DNA of 7,899 nt, from NCBI GenBank assembly GCA_022848825.1, contig JAJISH010000370.1, positions 1-7,899 on the forward strand. The letters run 5' to 3'. Under the pieces are notes generated by a model that was not told the origin of the DNA, searched no databases, and saw only the letters and a list, made by a program, of their open reading frames with translations. The DNA comes from Thermoplasmatota archaeon. Its GTDB lineage: Archaea; Thermoplasmatota; Thermoplasmata; RBG-16-68-12; JAGMCJ01. This document shows, in pieces, positions 1 to 7,899 of this stretch (positions within the stretch are counted from its first letter, which is position 1; each line of letters opens with the position of its first letter). A program made the position numbers and the translations under genes.

Positions 1-665
1 CCTTCCATCGTAGCTGCTCGGTTGTTGTATATGACGATTGGAGAGTCCTCCACCACATATCTTACGTCAGGGATGGCGACGAGTTCATTCATTCGGATCC
101 CATTGACCATCACATTCACAGTCCCATGACGAGCGGATGTCCCATAGACCACGCCAAGGTTTTCGATTTCCTTCAGGTTCCGATCGAAATCCACATCTGG
201 GTACAGATGCACCCTCACCTTCACGACCCCGTGTCCGAACAGGTCCGGGGAGACCTTGAAGGCTGGGTAGTATGGAATCAGAAACCTGACGTAATCGAGG
301 CTTCTCACCTTTGAGACACTTGACTCATCCATTCTCACAACGTAGCCGTTGTACGGAAGGTATTCGTACAGCCCGACGCCCATGTCCTCGAGCCTCTCCA
401 CCCTGTCAGCGGTCAAATAGCCCGAGTACTGGATGACGTAGTAGTCTCCCGTTTCCACGTTGGCGTAGGTCTCCATCACGGCTTGGGAATCGCTCGTGTC
501 TATCTCCAATCCAGAGTAGTAGAACCAAAGAAAGGAAGGTTCTACGGGAGACTGGCGTTCTTCTTCCGTGGAAATGCTAGTGGCGCTTGTCGGGAGAACC
601 ATTCCGATCACCACGAGTCCAACCATAAGTCCAACTAGCATTCTGCGATTATTTCCTGCTTTCAT
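1..665 (-). CDS. Secreted S8-type serine protease, N-terminal part only (signal peptide plus tandem pro-domains)
   Basis: The frame is open from the ATG at 665-663 to the window edge: 221 residues with no stop, so the 3' part is missing. The start is fixed by a GGAGG at 676-672, six bases upstream. Residues 1-30 form a Sec signal peptide: basic NNRR, a hydrophobic core over about 9-24, then PTSA with likely cleavage near residue 28. Residues 72-143 resemble the I9-type pro-domain of large subtilases (YYVIQYSG, LEDMGVGLYEYLPYNGYVVR, VRSLDYVRFLIPY). Residues 146-213 look like a second copy (VKVRVHLYP, LKEIENLGVVYG, VNVMVNG, IPDVRYVVEDSP). In this family such pro-domains act as intramolecular chaperone and inhibitor, and the S8 domain normally follows. 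None of its catalytic motifs is in the window, so protease activity is inferred. It is transcribed divergently from the giant S8 protease. Confidence 0.87.
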   Translation of the reverse strand, partial: MKAGNNRRMLVGLMVGLVVIGMVLPTSATSISTEEERQSPVEPSFLWFYYSGLEIDTSDSQAVMETYANVETGDYYVIQYSGYLTADRVERLEDMGVGLYEYLPYNGYVVRMDESSVSKVRSLDYVRFLIPYYPAFKVSPDLFGHGVVKVRVHLYPDVDFDRNLKEIENLGVVYGTSARHGTVNVMVNGIRMNELVAIPDVRYVVEDSPIVIYNNRAATME

Positions 666-669
666 GCTA

Positions 670-676
670 CTCCTCC
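670..676 (-). promoter_or_regulatory. Ribosome-binding site of the minus-strand protease gene
   Basis: Read on the minus strand the sequence is GGAGGAG, with six bases between GGAGG and the ATG at 665. It complements the 3' end of 16S rRNA and selects this ATG over the later in-frame methionines 9 and 14, which lie inside the signal peptide. Confidence 0.8.
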
Positions 677-682
677 ATTCCG

Positions 683-695
683 AATGACAATCATT
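683..695. promoter_or_regulatory. Perfect 5-3-5 palindrome, candidate operator
   Basis: AATGA-CAA-TCATT is a perfect inverted repeat with a three-base spacer. It differs at one position from the 13-base core of the bacterial Fur box (AATGATAATCATT). It lies downstream of the predicted start site of the minus-strand gene and 18 bases upstream of its ATG, where a bound repressor could block transcription. The RNA could also form a small 5-bp hairpin just before the ribosome-binding site. The regulator, if any, is unknown, and a palindrome this short could arise by chance in AT-rich intergenic DNA. Confidence 0.35.
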
Positions 696-737
696 TTCTG
701 CCCACAATTTCGGTAGTTGTTGCTATATTCCAGTTTG

Positions 738-858: not shown

Positions 859-939
859 ATGGCAGAATCACCTCGAGTTTGGCTTTTCGCCAGAGCTGTC
901 TTTCTTGCCCTACTCATGTTGGCATCTGCAGCACAGGCA
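859..939 (+). other. Sec signal peptide of the giant protease
   Basis: Residues 1-27 carry arginines at 6 and 12, a hydrophobic stretch over about 13-22 (AVFLALLMLA) and the signal-peptidase-I motif A25-Q-A27 before G28. There is no twin arginine and no lipobox, so Sec export with type I cleavage is the simplest reading. Confidence 0.85.
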
Positions 940-3900
940 GGGCTTGGGTTGCTGGGGGACAGTGACGCGCAAATCGCGATGACCGAGCATCGGGAAACGT
1001 ATGGGACGTTCGGTGTGGACGACGGTCTGGGGACCCTGAGAGGGAAGGCGGCCACAGAGCCCGAAAGCACGGGAATCGAGAAGATTGCGGTGATGACATT
1101 CAGACCGGACATCCTACACGACTTCCTAGTGGGGAACAAGGTCGCTTCGGAAGGGCTCGGCTTGACGCAGGAATCGTATGAGATGACGGTCAGGATCCTT
1201 GAGGTCCCTGCCTCCCTCGTCCCAGATATTGGGAGCCTCGAGGGTGTTGTGGGTGTCTCAGAGTACTCCGAACCCAACCTGCCGATGGACAGCGGAGGAG
1301 ACGGCCCGGCCCCATCGTTGGATGTGATCAACGAGAGACATGGAATCGATTCCGCCCGAGACAAGGGTTTCTCCGGCCAAGACGTCAAAATCGCCATACC
1401 GGACACCGGTGTCGACTTCGCGAATCTCGATCTGATTGGCACTCAGGCACGAGACACCAAGACCTACTCCACAACCGGCGAAATCGTCGTGCAATCTGCG
1501 GTTGCTGGGCAGGACAATGCGACACTCGTTCACAAGAAGGTGATTCCGAGCACAGAGACTCTCTACGTCAATGGGACCCCCATGCCAGGAGCGAGCTACA
1601 GCGTCGACTACGATACGGGGCAAGTCTCCTTCACACCGCCCTTGAACATAGCCGACGTGGTGACTGCTTCCTATGACTACTACTCCCCTTACTACGGGTG
1701 GCCTATTGTCTTCGACCCGATGTCCGTCGCGACATACATGAAGAACAAGTACCCTGACGAGACCTGGTTCGTGAACGCCACTCAGAACGGTACTGACAAC
1801 TTCCCGGTCAGTCACAGTATCAAGATCGACGGCAAGAACGACTTCGCCGAGCGTGAACAGTGGGGAAGTGACGATTCGGGTGATGTGAAGTACCAGCCTC
1901 CTGTGGGGGCCAAGACGACTGACTTCGATCTGATAGACGTCTTCGTGACACGGGACCAGGACTTCTGGTACCTCGGATTCCATACGAGCATGGGCACCCT
2001 GAACAAGACGTACGGCATCTACATTGATGTCGACAATGCCACGTCTGGTGCAGAGTACGATCCCGTAGGGAATCTCGTAGACACGAACGCTTCCCACTCC
2101 GACTCGATCACGGATGTGCAATTCAACCCAGACGGAAGCCTCATCGCGACTGCATCAAAGGACCGAATGGTGAAGATATGGAGCAAGGATGGGGACCTGC
2201 TCTTCGATCTCTTCGGGCATCTATCCGCACCGCACTCGGTGGCTTGGTCACCGGACGGGAGTCTGCTGGCAACGGCCGAGATAAGTTACGTGCGGATTTG
2301 GGATCCAACAACTGGGAGCCAGATTAGAGAGATACCCATCCCAGAGGGGACTGTCTCGGAGGGAAGAGCCCTCCTGAGTTTCAATGAGAATGGGACCTGG
2401 ATCGCGGTGGGGGGCGGCCTTTCGAACAGGGTCTACATTCTCGATGTCAACGATGGAAGCGTAATAGGCTATCTGAAGCCGATAAATGGGTTCACTCCGA
2501 ATTCCGTAGCCTTCAATCCATTCCTTGCCTACAGCGATGTCATTGCCATAGGTTCGGGAGACAGACAGGTCTACATCTACAATGTGAACGCCACGAACCT
2601 GAATGACCCCGCCGGGGGGATCCCACTCACTGTCCTCCAAAGGTTTCCGGTGAATCCTGAAGGACATTCCCAGAAGATCCAGAGCATCTGCTGGTCACCG
2701 GACGGAACAAGGCTAGCATCATCCGCCGCAGAGACAACCTACAACGTGAAGGTCTGGGATGTCTGGGGAGCAAATCCCGTTCAGAATCTCACGGGGCTCT
2801 TCGGTGACGTGAGGACTCTGGAGTGGACAGGTGACATGATTGCCGCTGGCGACCTCCTAGGAACAGCGAAAGTCTGGCAAGAATCTGGTTCCACGTTCGT
2901 GGAGATCTTCTCTCAGCAGGCAAGCCAGGCCCAGATAAACGGCGTTTCCATTTCACCCACGGATGACAAGCTTGCAACTGTCGCTGAGGACACACAGCTC
3001 AAGCTGTGGGACATAGGCACCGGACAGCTAGAGGGCATATTCAAGCACAAGCTCCCCGACTTCGCCATCTACGCCAACTATACGAGTGCCCTTTGGGGCT
3101 ATGACGATGATGGATACCCGTGGAGCCAGAACGACACCTTCATGAATGCCACGCTTTACGAATGGGAAGGTTCCCGCTGGAATGGCTCCAGACTGATTGA
3201 CATAGGCGGATCCCAGAAATACAAAAGCCTGAAGGATGGTGATTTTGTTGACAGCGGGTTCTTCGAAATGGCAGTGCCGAGAGGCGCGTTGGGAGACCCG
3301 CCGGGATTCGCCATTGAGCTTTTCAGTGTGGGCAAGAACGGATCCCATCCTCATGACTCTGCCCCAACGGACTTCAACATACAGGGGGATGTCGCATGGG
3401 ACAGCAGTTTCAGGTCGCTCTCCAACTTCGCGTACCGGAGGATCCAGATATACAAGGTGAACATCTCACCGCAGAATGCCACGAAATCTGTCTATCACTT
3501 CGGGAACCATCCCGGCGAGAATCTCGTGAAGACGTTCGGGACGATAGGCGTACTCGTCGCGGACAACCGAACCGCTGGTGTATATGAGAGAGTGTACGTG
3601 GATCTCAACAACGACAAGATCTTCGATGACACTGACGTGGTTCTCTATCGCGGGAACGAGGTTGGATACTTGGATGATTACAACGCGACCGCCGCATTCA
3701 GAAACGACTATCAGAACCTCACAACACCTGACGGAATCCCCGACCTGTCGGCAGGAATGGTGTACTTCATCTCGGACGGAGAGACCTACATCCCCTATTC
3801 GGATGTCTACTGCGAGGACAATCTGATCGAGGACTGCATCGTTCCGAAGAACGGGGAGCTTGTAGCGTTCGCGGGAGAACTGGGGCTCCAGAAGTACCAT

Positions 3901-6900
3901 GGAACCAGGATGGCATCAGCGATCGTGGGCCAGGGCAGGCTTGACACGGACCTGGGCGACCCGGACATAGGAAGGGTCGTCGGAATCGCCCCGAACGCGA
4001 CGATCATCATGATTCCCAACGCCTTTGACAATATCTTCGCTGCCTGGACCTTTGCAGTGGAGGGATACGACGGAGTTCCAGACTCAGGGGATGAGGCGGA
4101 CATAGTGATTAACGGCTTCAACTATGCACGCTTGCTCAACAGCGGATGGGATGTATTCAGCCGGTTCGCCGACTGGGCATCCGTCAAGCGGTCGGGGGCG
4201 AGTACCGTGTTCGTCACCGCAGCGGGCAACGACGGATTCGGATATGGGACAATCAACTCGCCGTCCTCTGCGACAGCGGTCATAACGGCTGGCGTCGCAA
4301 CCGACTACACAAGAGACTCGTCCATGTATGCATCCTATGGCGCGAAGGAAGGATCCAATCCGAAATGGGGAGATGTCATGCCATACTCCTCGAAGGGTCC
4401 GACGCCCATGGGAATCCCCAAGCCAGATGTTGTCACGATCGGAGTCGCAAACGTCGATGATCCGCTGTGGAGAGGGCCTGACGGAAGCAATATGACGGCC
4501 CTTAAGTTGGGGCTCTTCGAGGGCTCTCACGTATCGGCGGCGATTACAGGAGGCGTCGTTGCGCTCATATACGAGGCGTTCCACTCGACCCACCTGAGAT
4601 TCCCGACGGTCCAGGAAGCGAAGGCGATACTGAAGTCATCAGCTGACAACATCAACCATGACGTTCTGTCGCAAGGTGCTGGATTCGTCAATGCGAGCAG
4701 GGCGGTGGACCTGGCCGCGAACGTTGGCGGGATAGTTGTTGATCCCACGTACTGGGTGCCAGGATTCTACGCAGGCGGAAAACCCGAGGCGTTCGCAAAG
4801 CTGATGTTCCCTGGTGAGAGCGATTCGATCGACTTCACCGTTGAGAACACGGATTTGACATCGTCCGTTTCCGTTCAGGCTAGCGATGAGGTCTTCAAGA
4901 AGACCGCCACATACTACACCGATGGAGTCACGAGATTCGACGGCTGGTTCTCCACGGACGGAAGGCTGACGTACTGGATCAATGACACGGGACTGACAAA
5001 GATACTGCCACATCCCTTCATCTGGGACAACTACACGCTTGTTCAAACGCCAATCGACGCCGGTCTGTGGAATTCTGCGGACCTGATGAAGGTCACGGCA
5101 TGGTCCAACTTCACAGACATCGATACGGACAGCAATGGCATGATAATCCGCGAGTCGCAGGACCCGGTGATGATTCTGGAGCTTCGCGACTGGGAGAACC
5201 TTCCCGTATTCCCAGTCCGAGACTATCCGGACACGATCATGCAGCAGATCGAGACGAACACATTCACGCGATGCAACAACGTGGCCAATGTCCTTGAGGC
5301 AACGGTCCACAATCCGGCTTCAAGAATCCATGATGCGCTCATAATCAACCTCAAACCAACGCCGACAAAGTTGGACCAAGGCCAGTACTGGAAGCTCAAG
5401 ATCGAGTTCTTCGAGAGATTCGACTGGGACTGGCTCTCCTTGGACAGCACTTCGTTCACGATACCGGCTGGCGGCACGCAGGACCTCACAGCAACGATGA
5501 CCCTGCCTCCGGATGTTGGCATCGGCTCCTACGAAGGAGGGATCTATCTTGACGCGAACGGTCTCGTATCGGTAATCCCCGTGCTCGTCAACGTCGCTTC
5601 GAGGGAGACGCGTTTCACGTTTGGCGGGTTCTCCTCGATATCCCAGGACCTCTTCAACAACACGAAGATAGGAGGGGGCATGGGAGGCGGGTTCGAAGGC
5701 GACCTTGAGAGATCCGGTGACTGGAGGTACTTCTACATCGATGTCCCGAGACAGGGCAAGTTCATAGATCCCTACAATTACAAGTTCTATATCGATGTCT
5801 CCTGGAATCTCAAGCCCTCCGACATTGACATTCACGCGTTTGGCAAGGATCCGGCCCCCGCCTATGCGGACTACTTCTCGGACAGCAGCAGGTACGGGGG
5901 CTACACGCTGAGCGAGACCGGAGCCAGCGAGGACGATGATGAATTCAACACTGTCACGAACACGAGCCAGGAGATCATAACCCCTCCACTGAGACCGGGG
6001 CTGAACGTCATCGCCCTCCACTGCGTGATGTTCAATGGAACACAAGAGCCTGAGGAGAACGTCTCGGGCCAGGTCGGCTGGGTGGAGATCACTCCGGTGG
6101 AGCTCAGGAAGGTCACGAACCAACTCTCCGGAGAGGCGCGGATGACCTTCACGTCGAACTTCGATTGGCCGATGGGGATGGAAACGATGGCTGTCGGCCC
6201 GGCTCAGATGGAGAGGTTCGATGACGTGGAGATATTCTTCGACAAGAAGATCGTGGAGGAGCTCATTGGGGGTGAGATAACGTTCGTGGAGGCTCTTGCA
6301 CGCGGCAACTACACCTACGTTGTCAGGGTCAAGGACGCCCTCATCTTCGACGTTCACATATGGGGAAAGGCTGATGCACCAGACCTGGACCTCGGGATCT
6401 TCCTGGATGCCAATGGGAACGGGGAAGCGGAACCGGGTGAGTTTGTGGAATACGACGCGGATGCGGACGCGGACGAGCAGGTCAAGCTGAAGGCCCCGAA
6501 GGATGGCCAGTACATCATCAAGGTCCTCGGTTTTGACACTCGAGACCCGGGTCACTTCGACATCGAGATAAGCGTCACGATAGCTGGCATAGAGGGCTAC
6601 AAGATGGTCGATGCCCCAGAAGGCCCCATCACGGCGAACACGCCGCTCAACTTCGGGATGTCCTGGGAGTTCATGGGCGACACCGAGGACCGGGACTATG
6701 GTGGCGTGCTCACGCTCGGTCCGCCTGGAGCGAGCGAGGCCGTGCTCATCCCAGTGACTATCACGCTTGACAGAACGCCGCCGTCGATTGGGGATCTTGT
6801 CATGAGCACCGGCGATAAGCAGGTGAACTACCTGGACAACAGAACGACGAACCAGATCCAGCCTCAGTTCTCCGTCGCGGTGTTGGATCTTGAACGAGGA

Positions 6901-7899
6901 GAGATAGATCCCGGGCTGTGCGCCGTGTACTTCGATGGCGAGGATTCCACATCTTGGAGCACGATTGACATCAAGTTCGTGAGGAACGCCGAAGACGCAT
7001 ACGGATACTGGGCAGGGGGAATCCTCTATAGCCCCGTCACTCCGCTTTCCGAGGGCGTGCACAACATCACATTCGTCACTGGTGATGCTGCCGGCAACTT
7101 GGTCATAAAGGACTTCATAATAGTCGTTGATACCCAGTCCCCGCCGCTCGTGCTCGACCAACCGACAACGATGCATACTCAGGTGACCGAGGTGACGGTC
7201 AGCGGGACGACGGAGGCCCTCGCAACTGTCTTCGTCAGATCGGAAATGCTGACGGCGGGTCCAGATGGGAGGTTCAAGACGACGATCACACTCGTCAATG
7301 GAACAAACATCATTCAGGTCCGAGTTGTTGACTGGTTCGGCTTGACCGCCTCGGGTGATCTCGTCTCGGCAAACGACAACTCTGCAACGATTGAGATCGT
7401 CTCGGATTCCGTCTCTCCGACATTCGGGCGGATAGACTATCCTGCGGTGACGAACAGTGAGTTCGCAGTGTTCAGCGGACTAGTCGATGATCTCGTCTCC
7501 CAGTTACCGGAGGAGCATCTGGACCTGGACATGCTGTCATTGAGGATCGCGGGCATCGACGTCCCCGTCCAGAGCGACGGCTCCTTCTACGCCGTCATTC
7601 CGCTCCCGCTCGAGGGAGAGAACAACATCACGTTCCTCCTCTCCGACCCCGCGGGGAACACAGCGTCCGACAGCAGATTGGTCACCAGGGACACCACGCC
7701 TCCCGCCCTCACGCTGGAGTCCGTCCCCGAGACGACGACGTCCAACACGGTAAGGGTGAGGGGCACCGCCGAGGCGGGAAGCACCGTGACCATAAACGGT
7801 CGCTTCATTCCGACGGAACTCGATGGAAGCTTCTCCGAGGACGTGACACTGAGCTGGGGACCCAACATCATCATAGTGGAGTCCACGGACGAGGCGGGC
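859..7899 (+). CDS. Giant secreted subtilisin-like (S8) serine protease with a WD40 propeller nested in its catalytic domain, 3' end missing
   Basis: The frame is open for 2347 codons to the window edge, with no stop or frameshift. In order: Sec signal peptide 1-27 (cleavage AQA|G); short pro-region with an I9-like segment about 73-138; S8 domain with Asp182 in DTGVD; a long insert; His1014 in HGTRMAS; oxyanion Asn1124 in TAAGND; the SSKGPT..KPD segment 1177-1190; Ser1223 in EGSHVSAAI; S8 end about 1286; beta-rich region to about 1970; then Ig-like domains. The full triad suggests an active extracellular endopeptidase. Asp and His are 832 residues apart, against a few tens in ordinary subtilisins, because a DOMON/CBM9-like domain and a seven-bladed propeller are inserted. 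Six cysteines occur, including C985 and C993. N-x-S/T sites are numerous, fitting a glycosylated surface protein. Substrate and means of cell attachment are not visible. Confidence 0.93.
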   Translation, partial: MAESPRVWLFARAVFLALLMLASAAQAGLGLLGDSDAQIAMTEHRETYGTFGVDDGLGTLRGKAATEPESTGIEKIAVMTFRPDILHDFLVGNKVASEGLGLTQESYEMTVRILEVPASLVPDIGSLEGVVGVSEYSEPNLPMDSGGDGPAPSLDVINERHGIDSARDKGFSGQDVKIAIPDTGVDFANLDLIGTQARDTKTYSTTGEIVVQSAVAGQDNATLVHKKVIPSTETLYVNGTPMPGASYSVDYDTGQVSFTPPLNIADVVTASYDYYSPYYGWPIVFDPMSVATYMKNKYPDETWFVNATQNGTDNFPVSHSIKIDGKNDFAEREQWGSDDSGDVKYQPPVGAKTTDFDLIDVFVTRDQDFWYLGFHTSMGTLNKTYGIYIDVDNATSGAEYDPVGNLVDTNASHSDSITDVQFNPDGSLIATASKDRMVKIWSKDGDLLFDLFGHLSAPHSVAWSPDGSLLATAEISYVRIWDPTTGSQIREIPIPEGTVSEGRALLSFNENGTWIAVGGGLSNRVYILDVNDGSVIGYLKPINGFTPNSVAFNPFLAYSDVIAIGSGDRQVYIYNVNATNLNDPAGGIPLTVLQRFPVNPEGHSQKIQSICWSPDGTRLASSAAETTYNVKVWDVWGANPVQNLTGLFGDVRTLEWTGDMIAAGDLLGTAKVWQESGSTFVEIFSQQASQAQINGVSISPTDDKLATVAEDTQLKLWDIGTGQLEGIFKHKLPDFAIYANYTSALWGYDDDGYPWSQNDTFMNATLYEWEGSRWNGSRLIDIGGSQKYKSLKDGDFVDSGFFEMAVPRGALGDPPGFAIELFSVGKNGSHPHDSAPTDFNIQGDVAWDSSFRSLSNFAYRRIQIYKVNISPQNATKSVYHFGNHPGENLVKTFGTIGVLVADNRTAGVYERVYVDLNNDKIFDDTDVVLYRGNEVGYLDDYNATAAFRNDYQNLTTPDGIPDLSAGMVYFISDGETYIPYSDVYCEDNLIEDCIVPKNGELVAFAGELGLQKYHGTRMASAIVGQGRLDTDLGDPDIGRVVGIAPNATIIMIPNAFDNIFAAWTFAVEGYDGVPDSGDEADIVINGFNYARLLNSGWDVFSRFADWASVKRSGASTVFVTAAGNDGFGYGTINSPSSATAVITAGVATDYTRDSSMYASYGAKEGSNPKWGDVMPYSSKGPTPMGIPKPDVVTIGVANVDDPLWRGPDGSNMTALKLGLFEGSHVSAAITGGVVALIYEAFHSTHLRFPTVQEAKAILKSSADNINHDVLSQGAGFVNASRAVDLAANVGGIVVDPTYWVPGFYAGGKPEAFAKLMFPGESDSIDFTVENTDLTSSVSVQASDEVFKKTATYYTDGVTRFDGWFSTDGRLTYWINDTGLTKILPHPFIWDNYTLVQTPIDAGLWNSADLMKVTAWSNFTDIDTDSNGMIIRESQDPVMILELRDWENLPVFPVRDYPDTIMQQIETNTFTRCNNVANVLEATVHNPASRIHDALIINLKPTPTKLDQGQYWKLKIEFFERFDWDWLSLDSTSFTIPAGGTQDLTATMTLPPDVGIGSYEGGIYLDANGLVSVIPVLVNVASRETRFTFGGFSSISQDLFNNTKIGGGMGGGFEGDLERSGDWRYFYIDVPRQGKFIDPYNYKFYIDVSWNLKPSDIDIHAFGKDPAPAYADYFSDSSRYGGYTLSETGASEDDDEFNTVTNTSQEIITPPLRPGLNVIALHCVMFNGTQEPEENVSGQVGWVEITPVELRKVTNQLSGEARMTFTSNFDWPMGMETMAVGPAQMERFDDVEIFFDKKIVEELIGGEITFVEALARGNYTYVVRVKDALIFDVHIWGKADAPDLDLGIFLDANGNGEAEPGEFVEYDADADADEQVKLKAPKDGQYIIKVLGFDTRDPGHFDIEISVTIAGIEGYKMVDAPEGPITANTPLNFGMSWEFMGDTEDRDYGGVLTLGPPGASEAVLIPVTITLDRTPPSIGDLVMSTGDKQVNYLDNRTTNQIQPQFSVAVLDLERGEIDPGLCAVYFDGEDSTSWSTIDIKFVRNAEDAYGYWAGGILYSPVTPLSEGVHNITFVTGDAAGNLVIKDFIIVVDTQSPPLVLDQPTTMHTQVTEVTVSGTTEALATVFVRSEMLTAGPDGRFKTTITLVNGTNIIQVRVVDWFGLTASGDLVSANDNSATIEIVSDSVSPTFGRIDYPAVTNSEFAVFSGLVDDLVSQLPEEHLDLDMLSLRIAGIDVPVQSDGSFYAVIPLPLEGENNITFLLSDPAGNTASDSRLVTRDTTPPALTLESVPETTTSNTVRVRGTAEAGSTVTINGRFIPTELDGSFSEDVTLSWGPNIIIVESTDEAG
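1075..1272 (+). other. I9-like pro-domain segment of the giant protease
   Basis: Residues about 73-138 follow the pro-domain pattern: a first strand (KIAVMTFRPD), a helix with a sequence turn, a second strand (YEMTVRILEVPA), then IGSLEGVVGVSEYSEP, equivalent to the usual 'leaves V..V.' strand ahead of the cleavage region. Homology is weak by eye. It is shorter than the tandem pro-domains of the divergent neighbour. Residues 28-72 before it show no recognisable fold. Confidence 0.5.
1321..1416 (+). other. S8 catalytic domain, first fragment with the Asp motif
   Basis: Residues 155-186 hold an amphipathic segment (INERHGIDSARDKGFSG) and the strand VKIAIPDTGVD, matching the subtilase Asp motif; Asp182 is the predicted catalytic aspartate. 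The next residues, FANLDLIGTQA, match the usual HPDL-type continuation before the long insert begins. Confidence 0.9.
1543..1680 (+). other. Small beta-rich insert module after the Asp motif
   Basis: Residues about 229-274 contain LYVNGTPMPGASYSVDYDTG followed by QVSFTPPLNIADVVTASYDY, a strand-turn-strand pattern seen in small beta-sandwich modules of surface proteins. I cannot name the family with confidence. The following segment, YYGWPIVFDP (276-287), resembles one I associate with the Asp-His insert of large archaeal and bacterial subtilases. That is from memory, not from an alignment. Confidence 0.4.
1810..2085 (+). other. DOMON/CBM9-like beta-sandwich, first half
   Basis: Residues about 318-409 show the start of a carbohydrate-binding or DOMON-type sandwich: IKIDGKNDF (321-329), W335, TDFDLIDVFVTRD (354-366), FWYLGFHT (369-376) and YGIYIDVDN (385-393), ending in YDPVGNLVDT. 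Domains of this pattern occur in glucodextranase-like and other secreted proteins and often bind sugars or ligands. The expected later strands are absent here and reappear at residue 730, after the propeller. Confidence 0.6.
2086..3045 (+). other. Seven-bladed WD40 beta-propeller inserted in the protease
   Basis: Residues about 410-729 contain seven repeats. Their D-strand ends are VKIWS (W441), VRIWD (W481), VYILD (L528), VYIYN (Y574), VKVWD (W633), AKVWQ (W673) and LKLWD (W717), spaced 40-59 residues apart. Blades 1, 2 and 5 carry the classic (N/S)PDG turn and a preceding VxFxP or VxWSP strand; blades 1, 2 and 5 have the LIATAS/LLATAE/LASSA strand; GH-type starts occur at H454 and GH 602-603. 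Seven blades make a closed propeller whose ends lie side by side, suited to insertion in a loop. WD40 propellers usually bind proteins or peptides; no catalytic residues are expected. Confidence 0.88.
3046..3381 (+). other. DOMON/CBM9-like beta-sandwich, second half
   Basis: Residues about 730-841 resume the sandwich with LPDFAIYANY (732-741), ATLYEWEGSRWNG (764-776), SLKDGDFVDSGFFEMAVPRG (790-809), FAIELFSVG (817-825) and HDSAPTDFN (832-840). The order of the Y.W.G..W strand, the FE.AVP..ALG strand and the DSAPSD-like ending matches the C-terminal half of the family begun at residues 318-409. Together the two halves give about 200 residues, a normal single domain. Confidence 0.6.
3601..3636 (+). 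other. EF-hand-like calcium-binding loop in the Asp-His insert
   Basis: Residues 915-926 read D-L-N-N-D-K-I-F-D-D-T-D, placing acidic or amide ligands at loop positions 1, 3, 5, 9 and 12. It lies in the segment VYHFGNHPG (878-886) to MVYFISDG (967-974) that leads to His1014, so bound calcium could stabilise the catalytic core, as in many subtilases. Calcium binding is inferred. Confidence 0.5.
3871..4716 (+). other. S8 catalytic domain, main fragment with His, Asn and Ser motifs
   Basis: Residues about 1005-1286 contain YHGTRMASAIVGQG (His1014), VGIAPNATIIMIP (the usual GVAPxA segment), ADIVINGFN, VFVTAAGNDG (oxyanion Asn1124), YSSKGPTPMGIPKPDVV and EGSHVSAAITGGVVALI (Ser1223), then ILKSSADN and GAGFVNASRAVDLA, which close an S8 fold. 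The serine motif is divergent: Gly replaces Thr before Ser, and Met-Ala-x-Pro-His is replaced by His-Val-Ser-Ala-Ala. All four key residues are present, so activity is plausible. Confidence 0.88.
4717..6768 (+). other. Beta-rich C-terminal region, including a PPC-like domain with an acidic loop
   Basis: Residues 1287-1970 look like a chain of beta-sandwiches, as in other giant subtilases. About 1300-1600 include PGESDSIDFTVENTD and SFTIPAGGTQDLTATMTLPPD, typical of Fn3-like post-catalytic domains. A glycine-rich stretch (IGGGMGGG, 1604-1611) may be a linker. DWRYFYIDVPRQG (1621-1633) and LRPGLNVIALHC (1711-1722) follow. Residues about 1815-1906 resemble a pre-peptidase C-terminal domain (VVRVKDALIFDVHIWG, QYIIKVLGFDT) with a D-A-N-G-N-G-E loop at 1850-1856 and an acidic DADADADE run at 1866-1873, both possible calcium sites. 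Exact boundaries cannot be set by eye. Confidence 0.55.
6769..7899 (+). other. Tandem bacterial-Ig-like stalk domains (at least four, last one cut)
   Basis: Domains begin at the recurring D-x-T/S-P-P-type linkers: DRTPP (1971), DTQSPP (2091), DSVSP (2183) and DTTPP (2278). Each ends with a pattern like GxNxIxxxxxDxAGN (GVHNITFVTGDAAGN, GTNIIQVRVVDWFG, GENNITFLLSDPAGN, GPNIIIVESTDEAG). The second and fourth carry a V.GT.E....V.V.....DG.F core, as in glucodextranase-B-like and related Ig folds. Such arrays usually hold a catalytic head away from the cell surface. More repeats or an anchor may lie beyond the window. Confidence 0.75.

Follow-up and report, generated by a model that had tools for sequence, protein, structure and literature searches.

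The window, a stretch of 7,899 nucleotides that makes up one whole contig (G000:C302:1-7899) of a Thermoplasmata archaeon with a genome of 453 contigs, encodes a large protein in which a seven-bladed WD40 propeller lies within a sandwich domain, the sandwich within a subfamily insert and the insert within a subtilase fold, and in which the catalytic serine is replaced in the alignment by histidine. We consider it likely, with a probability of about 0.55, that this protein is anchored in the membrane and acts, without proteolytic activity, as the partner of a secreted subtilase whose divergent gene lies beside its own. The main gene (ORF 859..>7899, plus strand) runs off the end of the window, and 2347 residues lie within it. 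Pfam detected WD40 repeats, the His-Ser half of Peptidase_S8 and C-terminal Ig-like repeats; PF00082 scored 62 bits (curated cut-off 21.8), which assigns the protein to the Peptidase S8 fold. The features of the window are as follows.

3..707, minus strand: N-terminal portion of a second S8 subtilase, the divergent partner, truncated at the window edge (BLAST identity)
859..942, plus strand: N-terminus with a signal-like hydrophobic stretch (residues 1-28), read from the translation alone
1084..1275, plus strand: propeptide-like domain (residues 76-139), matched at E 1.1e-21 by a profile of family N-termini whose building set included the window protein itself
1402..1404, plus strand: Asp182, catalytic Asp position, present (alignment to relatives)
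1459..1683, plus strand: small beta domain, DUF2460-like (residues 201-275; segment comparison and Pfam DUF2460 at E 1.1e-6, 28.7 bits, under its cut-off of 30.4)
1684..1740, plus strand: YYGWPI..DP, start of the subfamily insert (residues 276-294; family comparison)
1801..2094, plus strand: CBM9/DOMON-like sandwich, first half (residues 315-412; segments, profiles, structure comparison)
2089..3045, plus strand: seven-bladed WD40 propeller in the sandwich (residues 411-721, or to 729; Pfam, profile and structure rows)
3055..3381, plus strand: CBM9/DOMON-like sandwich, second half (residues 733-841; segments, profiles, structure comparison)
3493..3780, plus strand: 'HFGN' block, end of the subfamily insert (residues 879-974; segments and profiles; in Pfam just a weak GEVED match, E 0.0097, below cut-off)
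3856..4755, plus strand: His-to-Ser half of the subtilase fold (residues 1000-1299; PF00082 and family profile)
3898..3900, plus strand: His1014, catalytic His position, present (alignment to relatives)
4228..4230, plus strand: Asn1124, oxyanion Asn position, present, Asp in most class A relatives (alignment)
4528..4530, plus strand: His1224 (codon CAC) replacing the catalytic Ser (alignment to relatives)
7015..7899, plus strand: Ig-like / Glucodextran_B repeats (residues 2053-2347), cut by the window end (Pfam: Glucodextran_B above cut-off, Big_13 at its cut-off, Big_6 just below)

A 618-residue minus-strand ORF (window 5320-7176), antisense to the main gene, was taken to be a shadow of the main frame and no gene of its own. 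The closest named relatives, both Thermoplasmata, were P0001 (Candidatus Thermoplasmatota archaeon), 95% identical to the window protein over residues 150-1290, and L020 (isolate RS_14_3), 97% identical over residues 876-1300. A search with residues 876-1300 gave hits in 53 of 400 genomes sampled from the window's class at E <= 1e-30 and in 37 of 292 genomes of its phylum at E <= 1e-10, both counts taking in active relatives. The DUF2460-like domain between Asp182 and the GWPI block occurred in some relatives only (including P0011, P0019 and P0027), with several copies in P0011, P0019 and others.

For the comparison with relatives, the Asp-His-Ser stretch was cut into segments, each of which was traced through 37 other sequences by BLASTP and then with profiles through 81 proteins, later 137 including loci from genome contigs. 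De-duplication at 97% over the His-Ser half reduced the 137 to 119 and covered that set only, so that 4 + 12 class A proteins added later lie outside it; L096, L102, L112 and L113 were set aside by place or motif as repeats of the window, P0024, L046 and L041, respectively. Class A (36 proteins and one 5'-cut) shows GWPI, first sandwich half, propeller, second sandwich half, HFGN and His-Ser half in this order. In class B (13) the sandwich is unsplit and a propeller lies within the HFGN block; class C (7) has a sandwich without propeller, class D (55) GWPI and HFGN only, with GWPI not found in some distant members, and class E (2) no sandwich and a propeller after the catalytic domain; five relatives were too cut to be assigned. 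The class E proteins, both with intact D-H-N-S, are L064 and L017, the latter from the window's own genome (G000:C382).

The GTSxxxP motif reads GSHVSAA in the window protein; of the residues expected in an active S8 peptidase, Asp182 and His1014 are there, but the serine is not. An earlier note, made from these letters alone, had called the protein a subtilase, which holds for the fold, but it had missed the replacement of the nucleophile by His1224. A sequencing error was ruled out by histidine at the same place in the records of P0001, P0002, P0004, L020, L021 and L096 (P0003 has Asp), six records that are not independent, P0001 and L096 being apparently one contig and P0002 falling with L021 at 97%. 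Serine was lost in 51 of 52 readable class A proteins, P0005 being the lone keeper. These 52 comprise 36 of the first set (35 class A and the one 5'-cut; L022 was not readable) and the 4 and 12 added later, with losses in 35/36, 4/4 and 12/12, respectively. At the serine position of these proteins, Asp occurs 41 times, His and Glu 3 times each, and Val, Tyr, Gly, Ala and Ser once each; 36 of the 52 are of the type 'D-H-D-D', with Asp at both the serine and the oxyanion positions and the histidine kept. Among the 39 class A rows of the alignment, which include two cut fragments placed there by the tree, the oxyanion Asn had become Asp in 29, a new Asn stood at column 1088 in 30 and His1014 was conserved in 38, while Asp occupied the serine position in 29 of 38; in two class A proteins found later, L101 and L108, the His1014 position holds Ser and Arg.

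We then asked for columns of the His-Ser half kept in at least 85% of 69 active relatives and in fewer than 30% of the 39 class A rows, and obtained only 1086, 1088, 1124, 1223, 1224 and 1228. The active relatives were chosen by H-N-S, and columns 1124 and 1224 are thus conserved by selection, the other four not. We take the six to be subtilisin Ser125, Gly127, Asn155, Thr220, Ser221 and Pro225, all at the active site. At the level of the alignment, these results demonstrate that the loss is focused on the active site and that the catalytic serine is gone from the window protein. Serine was kept in all 13 class B and both class E proteins, and in class D in 51 of 54 readable proteins and 29 of 30 in a later set, where the exception, P0176, looks like a 5'-cut fragment of the Asp type. 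The whole D-H-N-S set was kept in 13/13 class B, 51/54 readable class D and 2/7 class C proteins. Five class C proteins (L036, L049, L055, L059 and P0029) have lost Ser, His (to Q/R) and Asp (to T/S) and are decayed beyond class A.

A tree of 86 rows, built from the His-Ser half minus the catalytic columns, placed class A and the two cut fragments in one clade (support 100/98). A node with support 97/94 joins this clade to dead C and D proteins without propeller, whose own grouping reached merely 91/73, and class B forms a separate group with the two active C proteins (94/94). Mapped on this tree, the nested propeller changed once and the serine state twice, with one independent pair only; nesting and serine loss are therefore roughly single events and not independent replicates, and the link between them is not replicated. 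The nested propeller as the cause of the serine loss was rejected, because the dead C and D relatives, the nearest group, have lost the serine without a propeller. The propeptide-like domain was matched in all 8 class A proteins that retain Asn1124, the subset that includes the window protein, and was missing in 24 of 26 with Asp or Glu at 1124, a count in which P0018 is too short to tell and which leaves the 4 later class A additions outside. Since the profile also misses many active class D proteins (19/51 without match, 7 weak), the absence in class A leans as well on shorter N-termini, the median number of residues before the Asp block being 111 in class A vs 168 to 186. The core class A lineage thus stands one step beyond the window gene, as both Asn1124 and the match to the propeptide-like domain are missing there.

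The minus-strand ORF at 3-707 of the window is 94% identical to L020_0 and 86% to L021_3; the L021 partner is an S8 peptidase by Pfam, and the L020 and L021 partners have an intact triad. From residue 249 on, the window's partner continues on contig C241 of the same genome, where its D, H, N and S motifs are intact (ADTGFD, GHGTH, AAGN and GTSASTP). In the congener G301 (L096), both genes are complete and divergent with 106 bases between the open frames. All 8 partners scanned were S8 subtilases (Pfam E 2.5e-22 to 1.5e-37), and the profiles of the main family did not list the partner as a member. Of the 19 non-redundant class A loci whose upstream sequence reaches 800 bp or more, 18 have a divergent S8 neighbour (15/16 + 3/3); the remaining one, L046, shows no such neighbour in 7.7 kb. 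The neighbour was found at 0/8 non-redundant class B loci (9 loci, each with about 6.9 kb or more upstream) and at 0/16 class D loci with 2 kb or more upstream; class D loci L038, L048, L050 and L062 gave partial same-strand matches, and a partner-like fragment adjoins the dead D-type protein L105.

The partner's D-H-N-S was intact in 16/16 readable cases (11 beside class A, 3 beside dead C and 2 beside active C proteins), four more partners that are cut before the serine being outside the 16. The serine motif is present in the partners of L096, L099, L102 and L108; by simple pattern match, no HGTH was found in the L108 partner and no AxGN in the L102 partner. Two class C relatives with intact serine, L030 and L041, have the same divergent neighbour, which suggests that the pairing probably came before the inactivation and that a dead subunit is not needed for it. 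The genes flanking the loci looked at were mostly housekeeping, so part of the linkage may reflect conserved chromosome order.

Several side observations were made at these loci. Matches to the final part of the partner, covering about 145-385 residues, turned up at 24 further sites of G000, out of 27 places listed in all; this widespread C-terminal domain (GWNLIG...YWV, e.g. C426:2507-3475 and C222:1-954) may be a common module for export or for the cell surface. Six loci (L024, L025, L037, L053, L054 and L058) have a CrtC/lipocalin_9-like gene of about 480 residues between the genes of the partner and the pseudo-subtilase, on the partner's strand, identified by Pfam for L037 (5850-7283 minus) and by BLAST clustering for the rest. 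The partner at L054:653-5511 (CP070767.1) is in two overlapping frames, indicating a frameshift or an assembly error. Downstream of a class A locus, L037:16510-17388 encodes a serine recombinase (Resolvase/Recombinase), with BLAST-related genes in L026, L053, L054 and L058.

The two proteins are predicted to differ in topology. Hydropathy (19-residue mean of at least 2.0 for C-terminal and at least 1.9 for N-terminal stretches, cut-offs set after seeing the values) gave a C-terminal hydrophobic helix in 25 of 30 class A proteins, some of them partial at the C-terminus, vs 1 of 11 partners, and an N-terminal hydrophobic stretch in 10 of 11 partners. Among class A, no such helix was seen in L025 and L029 or in P0003, P0004 and P0006, which are short or partial, and the P0121 hit is doubtful, as it contains a proline. 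Class A does not stand alone in having the C-terminal helix, which also occurs in 8/10 class B and 4/4 class C proteins. In the orthologue P0001, the helix lies at 2332 and is followed by a 119-residue acidic tail, beyond the point where the window's gene ends. The kept fold, the lost cutting residue, the constant intact subtilase and the opposite topology signals together suggest that the class A protein may hold or tune a secreted protease at the membrane. The helix predicted from P0001 would anchor the pseudo-subtilase in the membrane, the partner subtilase, predicted to lack such a C-terminal helix, would be exported, and the two would meet outside the cell. There the propeller and the sugar-binding-type sandwich may bind ligands or partners, and the dead subtilase domain may retain its fold as a docking or regulatory surface. 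In the window protein's subgroup the propeptide would stay attached, since self-cleavage would not be possible.

The reading that follows most closely is that the subtilase domain is an inert scaffold of a large surface adhesin or glycan-binding protein, linked to its neighbour by conserved chromosome order only. We rate it as possible though unlikely: the Ig-like repeats at the C-terminus, a Ca_tandemer adhesin-repeat match to the main protein below cut-off and the CBM74/CBM9-like sandwich agree with a scaffold, yet drift would not give a histidine kept in 38/39 rows with Asp at the serine in 29/38 and at the oxyanion position in 29/39. Likewise, the housekeeping surroundings of the loci looked at and the presence of the neighbour where the main protein is intact (L030, L041) favour a linkage by order, which has to be set against its retention at 18/19 loci although identity to the window protein falls to about 40% among the proteins encoded there.

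Dead subtilases beside an active one have a precedent in Clostridioides difficile, where the pseudo-subtilases CspA and CspC are encoded with the active subtilase CspB (PMC6636752). Like the window protein, these combine a subtilase fold that has lost catalytic residues with an inserted beta domain (a jelly roll), and the prodomain of CspC stays uncleaved; unlike it, their three-domain make-up as described there contains no propeller and no CBM9-like domain (PMC6636752). In CspC, G485 occupies the Ser position and T170 the His position, whereas class A has D or H at Ser and keeps His; the Csp proteins are soluble spore proteins, whereas class A is predicted to be membrane-anchored. A finding in C. 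difficile tells against a model in which a dead subunit pairs with the active one, in that the two dead proteins bind each other, CspC binding CspA instead of active CspB (PMC12880746). The window protein had no NCBIfam CspC match at E <= 0.1, and the L096 partner reached 20.8 bits with the CspC model (cut-off 675). With the IteS anti-phage S8 peptidase model (NF042956), the window protein scored 16.8 bits, against a cut-off of 900.

The Asp-rich site of class A also allows a bolder reading. Since Asp at two positions with the histidine kept may mean a new use of the site, the D-H-D-D lineage might form a metal or Asp-nucleophile centre, working with the intact subtilase as a two-gene machine and aimed by the propeller within its glycan-binding-type domain; we regard this as doubtful. 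If it were true, a serine-protease site would have been turned to new chemistry across an archaeal surface-protein lineage. As an account of class A in general, it would make most members enzymes of a new kind, their metal or Asp nucleophile in a site that presumably corresponds to Asp32-His64-Asp155-Asp221 in subtilisin numbering, with the window's His221 a variant. D, H or E at the serine position in 47 of 52 class A proteins, D at both positions with His kept in 36/52 and the new Asn at 1088 in 30/39 speak for such chemistry. It is improbable nonetheless, for the 12 D-H-D-D additions (12/12) were found with query P0017, itself of that Asp-type lineage, a bias that slightly lowers its odds, and among 4 class A additions found without an Asp-type query only L110 (1/4) is of that type; moreover, in the window's subgroup Asn1124 is retained and the serine position holds His1224, other class A proteins have V, Y, G or A there, and the searches made found no known enzyme with such a site. 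A non-proteolytic partner of the secreted subtilase is still the reading that we prefer for the window protein.

The nesting order itself is shown by these comparisons. Asp182 and His1014 are separated by 831 residues, the figure that the earlier note had counted, and the three levels that it proposed between them all stand. The same GWPI...HFGN insert lies between Asp and His in relatives of classes B, C and D (among them L015 and L016, from the same genome, L030 and P0043); those of B and C also carry the sandwich, but unsplit, and class D has neither sandwich nor propeller, leaving the outer subfamily-type insert alone. Each nesting level is thus found as a living protein, in the series of classes D (no sandwich), C (unsplit sandwich), B (unsplit sandwich with a propeller at another place) and A. 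The class A propeller interrupts the sandwich at a single point, the 411|733 junction of the query, and homologues without a propeller at this point, proposed as a check, were found in classes B and C, where the sandwich is unsplit. Seven repeats close one propeller, with limits of 411-721 by profile and most structural rows and 413-729 by the best row, in agreement with the 410-729 first put forward. A single propeller moving between classes A and B was disfavoured, since unrelated WD40 proteins outscored the other classes for 35/35 A, 13/13 B and 2/2 E propellers, although that set, with 87 proteins, is the larger one, includes proteins with many blades and was gathered by its likeness to the query. 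The propellers of the sister classes, which lie at other sites, appear to be separate acquisitions.

The nested sandwich is predicted to have a CBM9/DOMON-like, sugar-binding-type fold. In the structure model of L030, the unsplit sandwich forms one confidently predicted domain (pLDDT 86), whose fold in the model agrees with the sandwich of the CBM9/DOMON superfamily. VIA-align over Foldseek's 1000 candidates ranked CBM74/CBM9 at the top, and Foldseek's ranking alone placed antibodies first at E 0.04 or worse. The structural likeness was to CBM74 of Ruminococcus bromii Sas6 and CBM9 modules (7uww, 1i82) and to glucodextranase (1ug9), whose sandwich-type domain we take to be DOMON; no propeller is named in the titles of these three entries, and none gave a convincing match to the sandwich by sequence. 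Pfam had no model at E <= 1 for the sandwich of L015 or either half in the window protein, and sequence searches against Pfam and the PDB gave nothing convincing; as there is no Pfam match, we call the domain CBM9/DOMON-like and not a member. A PDB search with alignment A3 was swamped by the propellers in that alignment, and matches in a viral structure library were mainly WD40/propeller-type. The proposal that the two flanks form one sandwich holds for L030, where the unsplit halves fold as one, but less well for the window protein, in whose own model the first half is poorly predicted. This poor model is also what favours a propeller that adjoins the sandwich and merely looks nested, which is hardly credible given that the same halves are contiguous in classes B and C, where they meet at 411|733, and form one domain in the L030 model.

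Pyrolysin and tripeptidyl peptidase II are active peptidases with a large insert between the catalytic Asp and His, and we know of no nested WD40 propeller in either. A propeller nested in a subtilase was not found in the literature searched, including passages of PMC6636752, PMC9549277, PMC2605481 and PMC12880746.

For the family, these proteins provide living intermediates of stepwise nesting in a complete series: an insert, a domain in the insert and a propeller in that domain. They are also a large natural set of subtilases in which just the active site has been rewritten, mostly with Asp at two positions and the histidine kept, and whose genes lie next to that of an intact subtilase. This brings the question of how a pseudo-protease might serve or control an active relative within reach of tests outside spore germination.
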